From contig VBKF01000116.1 in assembly GCA_005888095.1 (NCBI GenBank), positions 1 to 42,467 on the forward strand: a DNA stretch of 42,467 bases. The letters are read 5' to 3'. The stretch comes from Deltaproteobacteria bacterium (GTDB taxonomy: Bacteria; Desulfobacterota; Binatia; DP-6). Below the pieces are notes generated by a model. The model had not been told where the DNA came from and did no database searches. It worked only from the letters and a program-made list of their open reading frames with translations. Numbering within the stretch: the stretch's first letter is position 1; every line of letters starts with the position of its first letter. The translations under genes were made by a program, and so were the position numbers. Below are positions 15,671 through 36,136 of the stretch, in pieces.

Positions 15671-15719
15671 GGGATACACTAAAAAACGTCCACTATTACA
15701 GATACTTACAGCTATTTAC
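15671..15719. repeat. AT-rich patch with 10-bp periodic TTAC repeats between dnaN and gyrB
   Basis: This stretch is strikingly AT-rich for the window and contains TTACAG at 15696, TTACAG at 15706 and TTAC at 15716, an exact 10-bp period, plus a run of six A bases at 15681-15686. It sits where recF would normally be. It may be an upstream promoter region for gyrB, or a DNA-unwinding type element; no DnaA box is adjacent. A small perfect hairpin GGCGT-AAA-ACGCC follows at 15725-15737. Confidence 0.5.
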
Positions 15720-15767
15720 CGGAGGGCGTAAAACGCCTGCTGAGCGCTGCCGGGCTTGCGTCCTCAG

Positions 15768-16889
15768 CTAGAGGCGCATCGGCATCACCACGTAGGTGTA
15801 CTCCGGGTCGCCGCTACCGGTTACGACGCCGGGTCCGACCTCATCGGTGACGCCGAGCTCGATCACCTCGCCCTCCGCGTGCGCACTCAGCACCTCGATC
15901 AGGTAGCGCGCGTTGAAGCCCACCGTGAGGGGCTCTCCGCCGTAGGAGATCTCGATGTCCTCGGAGGCCTCCCCCTGCTCGGGGTTGCTGGCTGACGCCT
16001 CGAGTCGTCCCTTCTCGAGATGGAGCTTGACGCCACGCGAGCGCTCGCTCGCAAGGAGTGAGATGCGACGCAGCGCTGCGAGGAGGTCGTCGCGGTTGAA
16101 GCGGGCCTTGGCGCGGACTGCACCCGGAATGACCTGGCGGTAATCCGGGAACTCTCCCTCGACGAGCCGCATGAAGAATGAAACGGTTGGCGTGCTCAGG
16201 CGCACATCCTTGGCCGACACCAGGAGCGTCACATCGCCCTGATCGACATCCTCCAGCAGCTTGCGCGCCTCGACCAGCCCCTTGCGCGGCATGATCACGC
16301 CGCGCTCCGGACTGGGGCCCGGCACGCGGCGATCGATCTTGGCCAGGCGGTGACCGTCGGTCGCGACCATACGCAGCACTCCACCTTCCCCACCCTCCAT
16401 GAGCACGCCCGAAAGGTTGAAGCGGGTCTCGTCGGTGGACACCGCGAACAGCGTCTTGTCGATCATCTCGCGCAGCGTGGCCGCAGCGACTTCAATCGCC
16501 ACCGCCCCCTCCGACTCCACCCCGAGCGGTAGTTCTGGGAAGTCCTTCGGATCGAGGCTCACGACCTTGAACTTCGAGCGGCCGGCGAGCACGTCGACCC
16601 ACCCGGCCGTAGAAGCCTTGAGCACCAGCGCCTCGGCCGTGACTTCCCGGCCGATCTCGTAGAGCTTGCGCGCGTTCACCGTGACGGCACCCTTCTTCTT
16701 CACCTCGGCGGGAACCCGCACACGCAGACCAACCTCCATGTCGGTCGCGGTGAATGAGATGCCCCCTTCCGTCGGGTCGAGCAGGACGTTGGCCAGAATC
16801 GGAACGGTGCTCCGTCGCTCGACCACTCCCTGCACGAGGTAGAGCCCGCGCGTCAGATCCTCCCGTCGGATGCTCACTTCCATGGCCAC
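15768..16889 (-). CDS. dnaN: DNA polymerase III beta subunit (sliding clamp)
   Basis: This 373-residue protein is the processivity clamp: three topologically similar domains, length normal. Recognisable segments are VVERRSTVPILANVLLDPTE in domain 1, FAVSTDETRFNLSGVLMEGG and MVATDGHRLAKIDRRVPGP in domain 2, and the C-terminal TYVVMPMRL, the conserved end that lines the client-binding pocket. GGAGGTGAGG lies just before the ATG at 16889, a strong ribosome-binding site. It follows dnaA with a 182-nt gap that holds DnaA-box-like sequences. Confidence 0.98.
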   Translation of the reverse strand: MAMEVSIRREDLTRGLYLVQGVVERRSTVPILANVLLDPTEGGISFTATDMEVGLRVRVPAEVKKKGAVTVNARKLYEIGREVTAEALVLKASTAGWVDVLAGRSKFKVVSLDPKDFPELPLGVESEGAVAIEVAAATLREMIDKTLFAVSTDETRFNLSGVLMEGGEGGVLRMVATDGHRLAKIDRRVPGPSPERGVIMPRKGLVEARKLLEDVDQGDVTLLVSAKDVRLSTPTVSFFMRLVEGEFPDYRQVIPGAVRAKARFNRDDLLAALRRISLLASERSRGVKLHLEKGRLEASASNPEQGEASEDIEISYGGEPLTVGFNARYLIEVLSAHAEGEVIELGVTDEVGPGVVTGSGDPEYTYVVMPMRL

Positions 16890-16928
16890 CTCACCTCCGC
16901 GGTTATCCCCGCTGTCCCCTCTGCCTAG

Positions 16929-16949
16929 TGAGAACGGTTAATCTTCTCA
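16929..16949. repeat. Inverted repeat in the dnaA-dnaN gap
   Basis: TGAGAA and TTCTCA pair across a 9-nt spacer (CGGTTAATC). It lies about 40 nt before the dnaN start on the transcript and could be an mRNA hairpin or a protein site. There is no T tract to make it a terminator. Confidence 0.4.
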
Positions 16950-16978
16950 TTCGAGGATCTCGTTGTCGTCGTAGGTAC

Positions 16979-17046
16979 TGTGGACGACGTGGAGAAGTCC
17001 ACAAGCCTTCTGAATCCTGTAGTGAAGGACGTGGGTCTTGTCCACC
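16979..17046. other. DnaA-box-like cluster between dnaA and dnaN
   Basis: TGTGGAC (16979-16985) and GTCCACA (16997-17003) form an exact 7-bp inverted repeat made of two DnaA-box cores facing each other, and TTGTCCACC (17038-17046) is a third near match. The box variant TTGTCCACA is also used in the 34.8-35.5 kb cluster, which supports DnaA binding here. The dnaA-dnaN gap is an origin or autoregulation site in many bacteria. The boxes are degenerate (7 of 9 at best), so this may be a control region only. Confidence 0.5.
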
Positions 17047-17071
17047 ATCCGGTGTGTGTTGTTCCCCGTCT

Positions 17072-18448
17072 CTACTGTCCTCGTAGGGTTCGCTCGAGAC
17101 ACTCGACCGTTGCCCGCAGCGCCGCGTCGTCCTTCAGCCGGCGCTCGGTTGTCGTGACAGCATGGATGACCGTCGAGTGGTCGCGATGGAATGCCTGCCC
17201 GAGTTGTGGGAACGACGCGCCGAGCAGCCTTCGACAGAGGTACATCGCGAGCTGCCTCGGCATGGCAACGTTCTTGCTCCGGCGCTTCGAGTGAAGATCG
17301 TCTGGCCGAAGCGAGAAGTGGTCGCACACCACCCCGAAGATATCGTTGAAGCTGACCGGGCGGCGCCTGCCCGCTGCCACGGCCTGCAGGACCTCGCGGA
17401 CGAGGTCGACGGTGATCGGTCGGCGATGGAGCGAAGCATACGCACCGAGTCGCGTGAGCGATCCCTCCAGCTCACGGACGTTGGAGGCGATGTGGCCGGC
17501 GATGAAGAGGGCCACCTCGTGATCCAACGGGATGCCCTCTAGGTCAGCCTTCTTCTCCAGGATCGCCACCCGCGTCTCCACGTCGGGCGGCTGGATGTCC
17601 GCGATCAGACCCCACTCGAAGCGGTTGCGCAGCCGCTCTTCGAGGTCCGGGATGTCCTTCGGGACCTTGTCGGAGGTGAGGACGATCTGCCGCCGCAGCT
17701 CGTGAAGGGTGTTGAACGTGTGGAAGAACTCCTCCTGCGTGCGCTCCCGGCCGGCGAGCAGCTGCACGTCATCGAGGATCAGGACGTCGACCCGCCGGAA
17801 GCGCTGCTTGAACTCGCCCATCCGGTCGTTGCGCAGCGAGGCGATCAGGTTGTCGATGAAGGTCTTCGACGAGAGGTAGCCGATCTTCAGGGCGGGTTGC
17901 TTCTCCTGGATCTCGTGGCCGATGGCGTTCACCAGGTGCGTCTTGCCGAGACCCACACCGCCGTAGATGAAGAGCGGGTTGTAGTGGTCACCGGGCTGGC
18001 TCGCGACCGCCTTCGAGGCGGCATGCGCGAACTGGTTCGACGCCCCGACCACGAAGTTGGCGAACGTGTACTTGGCGGTCAGCTCCGAGTAGAGCGCCCG
18101 GCGGTCGGGACGCGTGCGGGAAAGGTCCGGGAAGAGCTCGCCCTGATTGCGCGACGGCAGCTCGAGCGCGACGTGGCGCGACCCGATCACCGCGGCCACC
18201 GCCTCGCGCAGCTGGGGCAGGTAGTTGTCGGTGACGCACACGAGCAGGAGCTGGTTTGGAGCTTCCAGACGGAAGTCCGTCGACGTGAGATCGAGTGGAC
18301 GCAAACGCGCGACCACATGCGACAGCTCATCGGCGCTCACCTCCTCCGCCATGCGCTCGAGGATCCGTCGCCACAGCGCCTCGAGCGAGGCGACGGGCAC
18401 GTTGCGCCTCCCCCTGTCCACAGCTGTTGATAGAGTGGATTCCGCCAT
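17072..18448 (-). CDS. dnaA: Chromosomal replication initiator protein DnaA
   Basis: This 458-residue AAA+ ATPase binds DnaA boxes and opens the origin. Domain I (about residues 22-95, LWRRILERMAEEVSADEL) recruits helicase; domain III starts near 125 (YTFANFVVGASNQFAHAASK) with Walker A GGVGLGKT at 163-170 and Walker B LILDDVQ at 224-230; domain IV carries the box-reading helix-turn-helix with FHRDHSTVIHAV. Domain II is short. I chose the ATG at 18448 (MAESTLSTAV) because AAGGA lies about 9 nt upstream; the frame stays open 39 codons further, but without family similarity. Confidence 0.98.
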   Translation of the reverse strand: MAESTLSTAVDRGRRNVPVASLEALWRRILERMAEEVSADELSHVVARLRPLDLTSTDFRLEAPNQLLLVCVTDNYLPQLREAVAAVIGSRHVALELPSRNQGELFPDLSRTRPDRRALYSELTAKYTFANFVVGASNQFAHAASKAVASQPGDHYNPLFIYGGVGLGKTHLVNAIGHEIQEKQPALKIGYLSSKTFIDNLIASLRNDRMGEFKQRFRRVDVLILDDVQLLAGRERTQEEFFHTFNTLHELRRQIVLTSDKVPKDIPDLEERLRNRFEWGLIADIQPPDVETRVAILEKKADLEGIPLDHEVALFIAGHIASNVRELEGSLTRLGAYASLHRRPITVDLVREVLQAVAAGRRRPVSFNDIFGVVCDHFSLRPDDLHSKRRSKNVAMPRQLAMYLCRRLLGASFPQLGQAFHRDHSTVIHAVTTTERRLKDDAALRATVECLERTLRGQ

Positions 18449-18604
18449 CGTTTCGCTTCCTTGGGTATGAGGTTCGTCGAGGAGTCGAGAAGGCCGTGAC
18501 CGTTCCGAGCCTTCGCTCGGCGGACGAGCCGCGGTGGAGCGTGCGAGAGCAGGGCTAGGCTGCACGACGTTCCTGGGAGCGGCGGAGGTTCAGGGAGCGC
18601 GCCC

Positions 18605-26373: not shown

Positions 26374-26387
26374 GATCCCGCTCCTTG

Positions 26388-26504
26388 AACGCCGGCGAAG
26401 TTAGCTGACGGGTTCGGGCTCAAAGAGCGTGGCCCGTCCAGGTCTCCCTGGATTGACCCCCAAAAGCTGGGTCCTCCGCTCCCCTGTCGGGGATTAGGCG
26501 CGTA
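26388..26504 (-). promoter_or_regulatory. ydaO/yuaA c-di-AMP riboswitch aptamer
   Basis: The minus-strand RNA shows the conserved ydaO/yuaA elements in order: GCCTAATCC, GGGGAGCGGAGGACCCA, GGGGGTCAATCC, CGCTCTTTGAGCCCGAA, CCCGTCAGCTAACTTCG, and a closing GGCGTT. In known cases c-di-AMP binding favours transcription termination upstream of wall-remodelling or potassium-transport genes, and RlpA-like proteins are an established target class. An intrinsic terminator follows at 26322-26352 and a TTGACC/CATAAA promoter precedes it, so the whole OFF-switch layout is visible. Confidence 0.95.
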
Positions 26505-26519
26505 TGTCGATCTTCCAAT

Positions 26520-33341: not shown

Positions 33342-34787
33342 TCAGCGCGGGGCCTCGGAGGGGAGCGCGCGCAGCACATCGACCAGCCGCCGGACGCCCC
33401 CGCGCAGGTTCTCGACCGAGACGCGTTCGTTCGTGCCGTGCACGGTCCTCTCCTCGTCTTCGGACAGCACGAAGGGGACGAACCCGTAGCTGGCGACGCC
33501 GTGCTCGCGGAGGTAGTGGCTGTCGGTGAAGCCCGGCGTGACGCTCGGCACGACCGACGCGCCGCCGAGCTCCTGGGCGGCCATGTGACGGACGGCGGCG
33601 ATGAGGCCCGAGTCGGGGTCCGAGGACGAGGCGGGAAACGAGAGCAAGGTCTCGATCGAGATGGAATCGTCGCCGATCACGTCGCGCAGCTGGTCGAGGA
33701 ACTCCGAGGGCTTCTCGCCGGGCAGCAGGCGGCAGTCGAGGTGGGCGCTCGCCTCGGCAGGGATGACGTTCGTTTTCGGACTGCCCTCGAGGACCGTCGG
33801 CGTGATCGTGTTCCGGACCAGCGCGTTCTGGCGCGGGTTGCGTGCGAACTCGGCGAGGAAGATGGGGTCATCGAGCGAGGCGGCGAGATGCGCGAACTTG
33901 GTGCGGAGGGGCTCCTTCTCCAGGGGTGCCAGCGCGGCGAAGTAGGCCTCTACCGGTCGCACCACGCGGATCGGCGTGCGGTAGCGGCGGATCTTGTTGA
34001 GCGCGCGGATGAGCCGCGTGACCGCCGTCTCGGACGGCGGCGTCGAGCCGTGGCCGGCCTCGCCATGGGCGACGAGCTTCACCCAGAAAGGCGTCTTCTC
34101 CCCGACGGCCACGTGGACGATCCTGCGACCGCCGGCCAGCAGGTGGATGTGGTCGCCTTCGTTGATGCAGTACTCGGCGTTGCCGACCACGTCCGGCCGG
34201 TGGTGTACGAGCCAGCCGGTGCCCGCCTTGCCCCCCGTCTCCTCGTCGGCGGTGGCGAGCAGGATCAGGTCGCGATCGAGGGGCTCGCCGCTGCGCTTGA
34301 GGGCGATCATCGCCATCAGCTCGACGGCGGCGATGCCCTTGCAGTCGAGCGCGCCCCGCCCGTACACGAAGCCGCCTTCGCGCGTCCCGGCGAACGGCGG
34401 TACGCGCCAGGTCCGCGAGTCGGCGGGCACCACGTCGAGATGCGAGAGCAGGATCACCGGCCGTCCGGCCCCGCGTCCCGGCAGCCGTGCATACAGACTT
34501 CCCCGCCCGGGAGAGGACTCGATGACCTCGACGCGGAGGCCTTCGGCCACGAGCTTGCGTGCGAAGGCATTGGCGGCCGCCGTCTCGCTCCCCGGCGGAT
34601 TGGTCGTGTCGATGCGGAGCACGTCCGCGAGCAGCTCCGCCGTCTCGTCACCGAGCCTGCGCCAGTCGAGCTCGGCCGCGCGCGCCGACGCGGCGACCAG
34701 GATGCCGAGCCCGGCGGCGATGAGCAGGACTCGCCGGGAGCTTCTGGCGGCGCAGCGCACCGCGGGCAAATGAGGCAGCACGGGCAC
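33342..34787 (-). CDS. M20-family metallopeptidase, exported
   Basis: This protein, about 481 residues, is an M20 (carboxypeptidase/DapE-like) dizinc hydrolase. ILLSHLDVVPADSRTWRVPP, GRGALDCKGIAAVELMA, ATADEETGGKAGTGWLVHH and CINEGDHIHLLAG supply the metal and catalytic residues, and TPGFTDSHYLREHG the last His. SSRRVLLIAAGLGILVAASA is a signal peptide, so it acts outside the cytoplasm. The start is uncertain: GTG at 34787 or 34781 just before the signal peptide are best; the frame stays open to 35051 but that part is origin-like DNA. The true substrate (dipeptide or acylamino acid) is unknown. Confidence 0.88.
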   Translation of the reverse strand: MPVLPHLPAVRCAARSSRRVLLIAAGLGILVAASARAAELDWRRLGDETAELLADVLRIDTTNPPGSETAAANAFARKLVAEGLRVEVIESSPGRGSLYARLPGRGAGRPVILLSHLDVVPADSRTWRVPPFAGTREGGFVYGRGALDCKGIAAVELMAMIALKRSGEPLDRDLILLATADEETGGKAGTGWLVHHRPDVVGNAEYCINEGDHIHLLAGGRRIVHVAVGEKTPFWVKLVAHGEAGHGSTPPSETAVTRLIRALNKIRRYRTPIRVVRPVEAYFAALAPLEKEPLRTKFAHLAASLDDPIFLAEFARNPRQNALVRNTITPTVLEGSPKTNVIPAEASAHLDCRLLPGEKPSEFLDQLRDVIGDDSISIETLLSFPASSSDPDSGLIAAVRHMAAQELGGASVVPSVTPGFTDSHYLREHGVASYGFVPFVLSEDEERTVHGTNERVSVENLRGGVRRLVDVLRALPSEAPR

Positions 34788-34830
34788 GGAAGTCAAGCGA
34801 AGCCGCGCCGGGCGCGTGTCCCCGCCGCCC

Positions 34831-35115
34831 GCCCGGGCGCTGCACCGCGTCAGTCGTGCACTTGCGGCCCGCGTCCGCCGCGAACGCGCGTCCCGCAAGG
34901 CGTTGGCGGCCCAACACTTATCAACACCGCGCCTGGCGCGGTCCCACGCGTCGGCGCGCACGCCCTTCCCGAGAGCTGGCGACCGCGAGCGCGGGCGGTT
35001 TCCGCTGCGGGATCGACTGGTTGAAGCGCTGAACGGGCACCTGGAGGGCACGCCGCGTCATAACGTGGCAAGCAGACGGGCCGCGCGGGAGTTGTCCACA
35101 GCTTCTCCACAGCCG
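34831..35115 (+). repeat. Origin module copy A
   Basis: Copy A contains the start element at 34837, box TTATCAACA at 34918-34926, GCGTCATAACG at 35055-35065, and boxes TTGTCCACA (35092-35100) and TTCTCCACA (35103-35111). It is the more GC-rich and more degenerate of the two copies. Confidence 0.75.
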
Positions 35116-35208
35116 CTTCGGCCGAAGGGCCGAGGTGGGTAGGCCCGCGAGCTAGCAGGCTATGTTGCGGTACACGCCCAAGCACCTCGTCGACTCGGCG
35201 TGGTCGTC

Positions 35209-35522
35209 GCCCGAGCGCTGCGCCGCGTCAGTTGCGCACGTGACGCCTGTTTCTGCCGCGAATCCACGTCCAGCAAGCCTTCCCGCTCGGGACACTTATC
35301 AACACCGCATCTGGCGCGGGGTCCGGCGCATCGACCGCTCGCTCCGGGATCGCCGAGGACTCCGAGCCCGCTCGGCCACTGAGGGTAATTTCCCTGCGAG
35401 ATCAAAGTGTTGAGCCACCAAAGCAGATGGTGAGGAGCAGATCGCGTCATAACGCGGTAAGAAGCTGTTGTTTTCGGGAACGGCGGGACAGGCGTGGGTT
35501 ATCCACAGCTTGTCCACACCGA
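35209..35522 (+). repeat. Origin module copy B
   Basis: Copy B contains the start element at 35215, box TTATCAACA at 35296-35304, GCGTCATAACG at 35444-35454, a perfect TTATCCACA (35499-35507) and TTGTCCACA (35510-35518). It is richer in AT (around 35385-35480) and has the only consensus box, so it is the likelier active unit. Confidence 0.75.
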
Positions 35523-35533
35523 TTTTTGGGGGG

Positions 35534-36136
35534 TCACGCTACCGTGGCGCGGTAGCCGGTTCCCACGGCATAGAGCTCCGCCGAGCCACGCCGCGTCGCC
35601 TCCGGCCGGGTCGTCCTGACGTCGTCGAACGTCTTCCGGAGCTGCGCCACGAGCGCCGCCTGCTCCGGCCCCATGAAGACCTTCATCAGGAGCCGGCCGC
35701 CGGGCCGAAGGAGATGGGGCAGTGCGGCGAGCACCGAAGCAGCCAGCTCGCTCCGCCGGGCCTCGTCCGTCGCAGCCACGCCGGTGAGTTTCGGCGCAAG
35801 ATCCGAAAGGATCACGTCGGCGGGGCGGCCGAGTCGCTCGCGCGCCGCGCGAATGACGAGCGGATCGCGGACGTCGCCGGCGATCAGCGCGACATTCGCC
35901 GCCGGCAGCGGCTCGAGCGGCACCACGTCCACGCCGACCGCCCGGCCTTCGGCGCCGATCCGCTCGACCGCGATCTGCAGCCATCCGCCCGGCCACGCCC
36001 CGAGGTCGATGACGTGGTCACCGCGGCGGAGCAAGCGGAAACGCGCCGCCAGCTCGGCGAGCTTGTAGGCACTGCGGGCGCGGTAGCCCGCGGCGCGCGC
36101 GCGACGATGGTATGCGTCCTTCGGCCGGTACGTCAT
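35534..36136 (-). CDS. rlmE: 23S rRNA (uridine-2'-O-)-methyltransferase RlmE (FtsJ)
   Basis: This 200-residue enzyme methylates the 2'-OH of U2552 of 23S rRNA. The SAM motif IDLGAWPGGWLQ starts at residue 43, and the K-D-K-E catalytic tetrad is visible as Lys25 (RSAYKL), Asp112 (LSDLAPKLTG), Lys152 (LLMKVFMG) and Glu187 (GSAELYAVG). Length is normal. Its 3' end faces the origin-like gap and the next gene on the same strand is a small exported protein 25 nt upstream. Confidence 0.96.
   Translation of the reverse strand: MTYRPKDAYHRRARAAGYRARSAYKLAELAARFRLLRRGDHVIDLGAWPGGWLQIAVERIGAEGRAVGVDVVPLEPLPAANVALIAGDVRDPLVIRAARERLGRPADVILSDLAPKLTGVAATDEARRSELAASVLAALPHLLRPGGRLLMKVFMGPEQAALVAQLRKTFDDVRTTRPEATRRGSAELYAVGTGYRATVA

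Follow-up and report, generated by a model that had tools for sequence, protein, structure and literature searches.

The datA locus of Escherichia coli lies far from oriC. It is a non-coding cluster of five DnaA boxes that requires IHF and sits at 94.7 min (excerpts of PMC5295017), and, together with DnaA-box clusters in Bacillus subtilis and Streptomyces, it is described as holding back or inactivating DnaA after initiation (excerpts of PMC5295017 and PMC5742627). B. subtilis carries six such clusters, and the removal of oriC-proximal ones leads to early initiation (Okumura et al., 2012, as related in the same excerpts). In E. coli, many boxes are scattered over the centisomes and enriched near the origin, a distribution suited to titration according to the part of PMC12371093 drawn on here. 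As to origins themselves, the bipartite oriC of B. subtilis and Helicobacter pylori is described in extracts from PMC4285127 as a pair of box-bearing regions close to dnaA, separated by a spacer gene and up to about 2 kb in all, and the published basal-unwinding rule asks for at least three 3′-NAN-5′ DnaA-trios (extracts from PMC8287927). Extra-oriC control loci have so far been studied in a few model bacteria.

The locus described here lies 3′ of rlmE on a contiguous stretch of 42,467 nt, referred to as the window, which is contig C116 of genome G000 (5.46 Mb, 271 contigs). The encoded RlmE shares 88% identity with its counterpart in a metagenome-assembled genome, Deltaproteobacteria bacterium DP_26, and seven more distant named hits (43–52%) include Candidatus Binatota and Binatia; the lineage is therefore treated as Binatota-like. 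Like datA and the oriC-proximal clusters of B. subtilis, it would be a group of DnaA boxes outside oriC, but its layout differs from that of datA and, instead of six clusters, there is one locus with a fixed arrangement of a single box and a box pair, duplicated in tandem. In contrast to the scattered boxes of E. coli it forms a single compact module, although both are near the origin. As in a bipartite oriC, two box-bearing regions are found near dnaA; however, the rlmE gap and the dnaA-dnaN gap of the window are 17.7 kb apart, well outside the dimensions given for such origins. The basal unwinding system finds its likeness in the dnaA-dnaN gap, which has tandem boxes, a spacer and a trio-like run with one canonical trio in G000, whereas the rlmE module has boxes without a trio run. 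Comparisons were made within a ‘family’ of seven genomes (G000–G006), namely the window's genome, two more of its genus and four more of its family.

A duplicated DnaA-box module in the rlmE gap

The features of the rlmE gap and its flanks are as follows.

33342..34773, minus strand: M20-family peptidase gene (PF01546, PF07687; start approximate, the open frame extends to 35051)
34774..35533, no strand assigned: intergenic stretch from the M20-type peptidase gene to rlmE, candidate accessory DnaA-box locus (box scan; flanking genes by profiles)
34830..35118, plus strand: module copy A (aligned to copy B)
34918..34926, plus strand: single box TTATCAACA of copy A (sequence match)
35055..35065, plus strand: GCGTCATAACG element of copy A (sequence match)
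35092..35111, plus strand: copy A box pair TTGTCCACA/TTCTCCACA at 11-nt spacing (pattern match)
35208..35524, plus strand: module copy B, adjoining rlmE (aligned to copy A)
35296..35304, plus strand: single box TTATCAACA of copy B (sequence match)
35444..35454, plus strand: GCGTCATAACG element of copy B (sequence match)
35499..35518, plus strand: copy B box pair TTATCCACA/TTGTCCACA at 11-nt spacing (pattern match)
35534..36136, minus strand: rlmE, 23S rRNA uridine-2552 2′-O-methyltransferase family (PF01728; TIGR00438 below its curated cut-off)

The initial annotation had proposed that two units in this gap share a series of ordered elements, and every one of these was found in both units. The GCGCTGC.CCGCGTCAGT element starts at 34837 in copy A and 35215 in copy B and ACACTTATCAACACCG at 34914 and 35292, with an offset of 378 in each case; the offset is 389 for GCGTCATAACG (35055 and 35444) and 407 for the box pair (35092 + 35103 and 35499 + 35510), the two box starts being 11 nt apart in either copy, as had been claimed. 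A spacing of ‘exactly 81 nt’ applies when the starts of GCGCTGC and TTATCAACA are compared, and measured to ACAC the distance is 77 nt. With an 11-nt step the two boxes of a pair face the same side of the helix, an arrangement that would favour cooperative binding.

Alignment of the two copies gave 212 identical columns out of 281 and a score of 190, compared with a mean of 33 and a maximum of 60 in 500 dinucleotide shuffles. Identity reached 35/37 columns in the box elements versus 177/244 in the remainder (Fisher p = 0.0015), which bears out the proposal that the elements were kept better than the sequence around them. The entire window has eight boxes that differ from TTATCCACA at no more than one position, and six of them fall inside the 760-nt rlmE gap, where 0.04 were predicted from the rest of the window.

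Two parts of an oriC-core definition were applied to the gap: for a box or pair with at most two mismatches it offers six boxes with 0–1 mismatch, and where three or more DnaA-trios are required no further than 16 nt from a box, the longest run anywhere in the gap was two. The lowest 40-nt GC content, found in the stretch of copy B that separates its single box from its pair, was 0.47 against a window mean of 0.70, and a clear unwinding element is not evident from this. No sigma-70-like promoter or terminator pattern was detected in a scan of 34700–35700, and the Rfam scan gave no match in the gap. If oriC is the dnaA-dnaN gap, the rlmE gap presents what defines a cluster, that is, compact near-consensus boxes outside oriC.

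The module stays with rlmE across the family

A comparison of the gap across related genomes, whose alignment the initial annotation had suggested as a check, revealed the DnaA-box module 3′ of rlmE in 7/7 family genomes, and this supports the view of a duplicated DnaA-box module under selection. All seven have the same order, a single box followed by the 11-nt-spaced pair, with 174–204 nt between them: 174 nt in copy A, 203 nt in copy B, 204 nt in G001 (across two overlapping contigs) and 201, 182, 202, 183 and 179 nt in the other five genomes. The single box is TTATCAACA in G000, G001, G002 and G003, TTGTCAACA in G004, TTATCCACA in G005 and TTATTAACA in G006. Mismatches of the pair to TTATCCACA are 1 + 1 in copy A and in G001, G002 and G004, 0 + 1 in copy B, 2 + 1 in G006, 3 + 0 in G005 and 4 + 1 in G003, so that the first box of the pair is degraded in the last two.

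The strict pair pattern TNTCCACANNTTNTCCACA matched six sites in five of the seven family genomes (two in G000 and one each in G001, G002, G004 and G006; none in G003 or G005), every one of them in the rlmE gap, and its reversed control had no site in 98 genomes. It also matches 14 genomes of other families, where it adjoins dnaA in 8 of the 11 loci tested. Within the seven family genomes a looser direct-pair pattern gave four sites, all in the rlmE gap, and TTATCAACACNG gave five, four of them there. TTRTCCACA was found at 39 sites (eight in the rlmE gap) versus 29 for its reversed control, and hence there is no clear excess outside the rlmE gap in these genomes. One or more boxes differing from the consensus at no more than one position lie downstream of rlmE in 7/7 family genomes versus 4/23 other-family loci (within 900 nt); the 23 include one locus (L073) read in the wrong orientation, neither flank of which has a box.

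Two module copies are present in G000 and one each in G002–G006. In G001 the rlmE gap is divided between the ends of two contigs, which share 20 nt near the position of the GCGTCATAACG element, and a second copy is possibly hidden at this junction. Duplication is therefore certain for G000 only, and the proposal of duplicated sub-modules holds for that genome, the five relatives G002–G006 being single-copy. An attempt to date the duplication from the left halves (identities of 108/146 for A and G001, 97/146 for A and B, and 94/146 for B and G001) was abandoned, as these values agree both with an old duplication lost elsewhere and with a more recent one in which copy B changed faster.

In G000, G001, G002, G004 and G006 the gap is bordered on its far side by an M20 gene, and no M20 homologue was present in 40-kb stretches around the rlmE gap of G003 and G005. 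As the boxes stay by rlmE while the far-side neighbour changes, the module travels with rlmE. The distance from the rlmE end to dnaA is 11–16 kb in the five family genomes that have both on one contig. Profile searches also identified gyrA, gyrB and hemL in the window. A c-di-AMP riboswitch (RF00379, 91.5 bits) lies at 26374–26510 on the minus strand of the window.

The dnaA-dnaN gap as the likely oriC

A further candidate for oriC, not considered in the initial annotation, is the gap between dnaA and dnaN.

15768..16889, minus strand: dnaN (TIGR00663)
16890..17071, minus strand: dnaA-dnaN gap, likely oriC core (box scan, conservation, weak class-model match)
16959..16974, minus strand: CTACGACGACAACGAG, at the position of the DnaA-trio run of other families (falls short of the strict trio rule)
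16979..16996, minus strand: tandem boxes TTCTCCACG and TCGTCCACA, likely oriC core (box scan, relatives)
17072..18565, minus strand: dnaA (TIGR00362; DnaA_N, Bac_DnaA, Bac_DnaA_C)

Four two-mismatch boxes are found in these 182 nt versus 0.14 expected. Tandem boxes, defined as having at most two mismatches in the better and at most four in the other, are represented by TTCTCCACG and TCGTCCACA with two each. Read toward dnaN, the layout is a GTGGACAA box, about 40–50 nt, the tandem boxes and then CTACGACGACAACGAG. The GTGGACAA box is present in 7/7 family genomes, and the tandem boxes with a CTACGACGAC-like run, CTAC(GAC)n-like in composition, are kept between dnaA and dnaN in 6/7, with variants such as TTACGACGG in G005 and CTACGGCGACGACGG in G003. 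A core complete in all seven genomes is ruled out by G006 (C272, L081), in which the sequence enters dnaN at about codon 8 directly after the tandem boxes and the usual dnaN start is missing; this gap appears to have been shortened by deletion or misassembly.

In other families a box end is followed by a trio start within 14 nt in 29 of 33 dnaA-dnaN gaps (loose pattern), and trio runs such as CTACTACTACT are common there. Several genomes of family f5 have near-perfect box arrays at 11-nt spacing in this gap. One f5 genome, G061, carries unusually extended TTATCCACAGG tandem arrays in 11-nt steps at two contig ends (C42:12-129 with 10 pattern matches, adjoining dnaA, and C199:11-95 with seven).

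Between G000 and G002, 148/183 columns (0.81) of the dnaA-dnaN gap are identical versus 183/366 (0.50) of the rlmE gap when copy B is used (bounds of this stretch set by the analyst); between genera, with G006 left out, the respective values are 0.44–0.54 and 0.28–0.40. A class sequence model built from 23 dnaA-dnaN gaps outside the family had its best window match, a weak one (7.1 bits, E 0.28), in the dnaA-dnaN gap, followed by rlmE copy A, scored by its boxes only (5.8 bits, E 0.74). Applied to 15 further family stretches, the model detected two sites only, in the dnaA-dnaN gaps of G003 and of G004 at E 0.0028 apiece, and with default filters it missed those of G001, G002, G005 and G006.

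A run of at least three 3′-NAN-5′ trios was not found after the window's tandem boxes, which are followed by one canonical trio and then by CGA CGA CAA. A three-trio run does follow a single box at 17038 on the plus strand, but this means little because runs of three occur at two more places in the window. CGA units occur as well in other-family genomes G087 and G032, on the basis of which loss of trios by drift with GC content seems likely. Boxes in the window's genome have 0–1 mismatch at rlmE versus two at dnaA-dnaN, and the latter, being further from the consensus, are probably weaker. The statement that the dnaA-hemL gap has no box at all stands for near-perfect boxes; one two-mismatch box is present there. 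In the scan, AT content over 40 nt peaked in the dnaN-gyrB gap at 15671–15730, where GC fell as low as 0.33.

GC skew

A skew analysis, also put forward by the initial annotation, was carried out in G003, whose chromosome arms differ in skew sign. The change point fell at 405–482 kb in the whole-sequence skew and at 557–592 kb at third codon positions; these estimates bracket both rlmE (506 kb) and the dnaA-dnaN gap (519 kb), fit neither and favour neither. The fit deficit was 11.9 (chi-square) and 9.7 (log-likelihood) at rlmE, and 7.5 and 8.3 at dnaA-dnaN, which is thus nearly as disfavoured. In the control G022, a single contig with clear box arrays at dnaA-dnaN, the change point was placed at 2.63 Mb versus 2.44 Mb for dnaA, indicating that the method is unreliable in this class. 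With the estimates of G003 on either side of both sites and the control failing, GC skew was dropped as an arbiter of the origin.

A proposed accessory DnaA-binding locus near the likely origin

The rlmE gap had been proposed as the origin, and this was not supported: the dnaA-dnaN gap is better conserved and keeps boxes and run in 6/7 genomes, and no three-trio run occurs in the rlmE gap. The dnaA-dnaN gap (16890–17071) is likely to be oriC, judged from its boxes and their conservation, and the rlmE module is more likely to be a replication control site than an origin. We favour, with moderate confidence, the reading of the rlmE locus as an accessory site near the origin with predicted DnaA binding, and not as the origin itself. 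Replication would start in the dnaA-dnaN gap, at the weaker boxes. The near-consensus boxes at rlmE would bind DnaA and would be doubled early in each round, and because of this DnaA would be held back or inactivated, lowering its free or active amount after initiation, in keeping with the accounts of DnaA-box clusters in B. subtilis and Streptomyces, of datA and of the origin-near boxes of E. coli; in G000 the tandem duplication would double the DnaA-holding capacity. Several points speak against this reading: six boxes are few for simple titration, there is only one canonical trio after the dnaA-dnaN tandem boxes of G000, the class model scores that gap weakly with the rlmE boxes close behind, skew disfavours it nearly as much as rlmE, and the core is interrupted in G006.

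A doubtful but not negligible reading is that the origin of the family has been split or moved. DnaA would then assemble at the rlmE module, 11–16 kb from dnaA, the dnaA-dnaN core having lost most of its canonical trios and the module having been duplicated in G000; initiation would take place at the module, or the module would act on the core over a distance undescribed for bacterial origins in the literature consulted. Should the module indeed belong to the origin, the notion of a bipartite origin would change.

As one form of this, the family may have moved its chromosomal origin from dnaA-dnaN to the rlmE gap, and G000 would have duplicated it. Boxes with at most one mismatch are nowhere denser than in this gap in the scanned stretches of G000, G002, G003, G004 and G005, the box order and spacing of the gap are alike in 7/7 family genomes, canonical trios from the second onward are lost from the dnaA-dnaN core of G000, and the core of G006 is cut short. 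We nevertheless regard a relocated origin as unlikely, since no box in the rlmE gap has a three-trio run after it, a clear unwinding element is not evident in the gap, the dnaA-dnaN gap is better conserved with its tandem boxes kept, and skew disfavours rlmE, though dnaA-dnaN also.

In the other form, DnaA would load first on the strong rlmE boxes and loop to the weak boxes at dnaA-dnaN. The near-consensus boxes at the former and the weaker boxes with an unwinding-type core at the latter would suit such a split, as would the 11–16 kb between the rlmE end and dnaA in five genomes; but with bipartite origins known up to about 2 kb (in the extracts from PMC4285127) and gaps 17.7 kb apart here, we consider it quite unlikely.

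DnaA paralogues and the box-reading loop

Three full-length DnaA-family proteins are encoded in G000. The two additional ones (G000:C177:29970-31295 and G000:C104:49523-50767; L258 and L259) are 42% and 34% identical to the main DnaA and carry DnaA_N, Bac_DnaA and Bac_DnaA_C. A second DnaA was found in 7/7 family genomes and in many genomes of other families, and at most one in the genomes of families f2, f5, f9 and f12 that were searched. The box-reading loop of the main DnaA (window 17072–18565) is one residue short, x-RDH[ST]T, in 6/6 family genomes read, and 32 other-family DnaA proteins have a longer loop, GGRDH, GGKDH, GNRDH or DGRDH. A tie between the shortened loop and the rlmE module was weakened by family f9, as both DnaA proteins read from it have the shorter loop.

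The existence of full-length paralogues in the family raises the question of whether a second DnaA-family protein (DnaA2 or DnaA3), and not the dnaA product, recognises the module. All seven family copies of DnaA2 that were read retain a GGRDH[SA]T box-reading loop, compared with the shortened loop of the main DnaA, and the five genomes in which DnaA3 was found are also the ones carrying the strict pair. However, f9 combines the same shortened loop with a single DnaA, six genomes of other families with at least two DnaA matches (G011, G013, G018, G032, G051 and G075) lack any box of at most one mismatch in the 900 nt 3′ of rlmE, and the paralogues keep a similar recognition helix; we consider a paralogue target quite unlikely.

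Regulation of a neighbouring gene's transcription, unrelated to replication control, is most improbable: although the rlmE gap sits upstream of the M20 gene and DnaA is also a transcription factor (excerpts of PMC8203912), the boxes stay by rlmE in G003 and G005, where no nearby M20 homologue was found, and no sigma-70-like promoter pattern was detected.

Implications of the rlmE locus

In our literature search no paper was found that links Binatota with DnaA, and among the matches listed for DnaA boxes and oriC-proximal clusters rlmE is not mentioned. Thus, while the kind of locus is already known, the rlmE locus appears to be new, and it stands out by its unusual fixed layout and by a tandem duplication that arose naturally. 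As a caution, choosing the densest box cluster as oriC can mislead. Under the favoured reading of an accessory DnaA-binding site, the module would offer a case of how origin and control boxes divide weak and strong sites between them, and a module fixed in position across an uncultured family, together with its tandem duplication, may provide a clean comparative case for the origin of such a locus.
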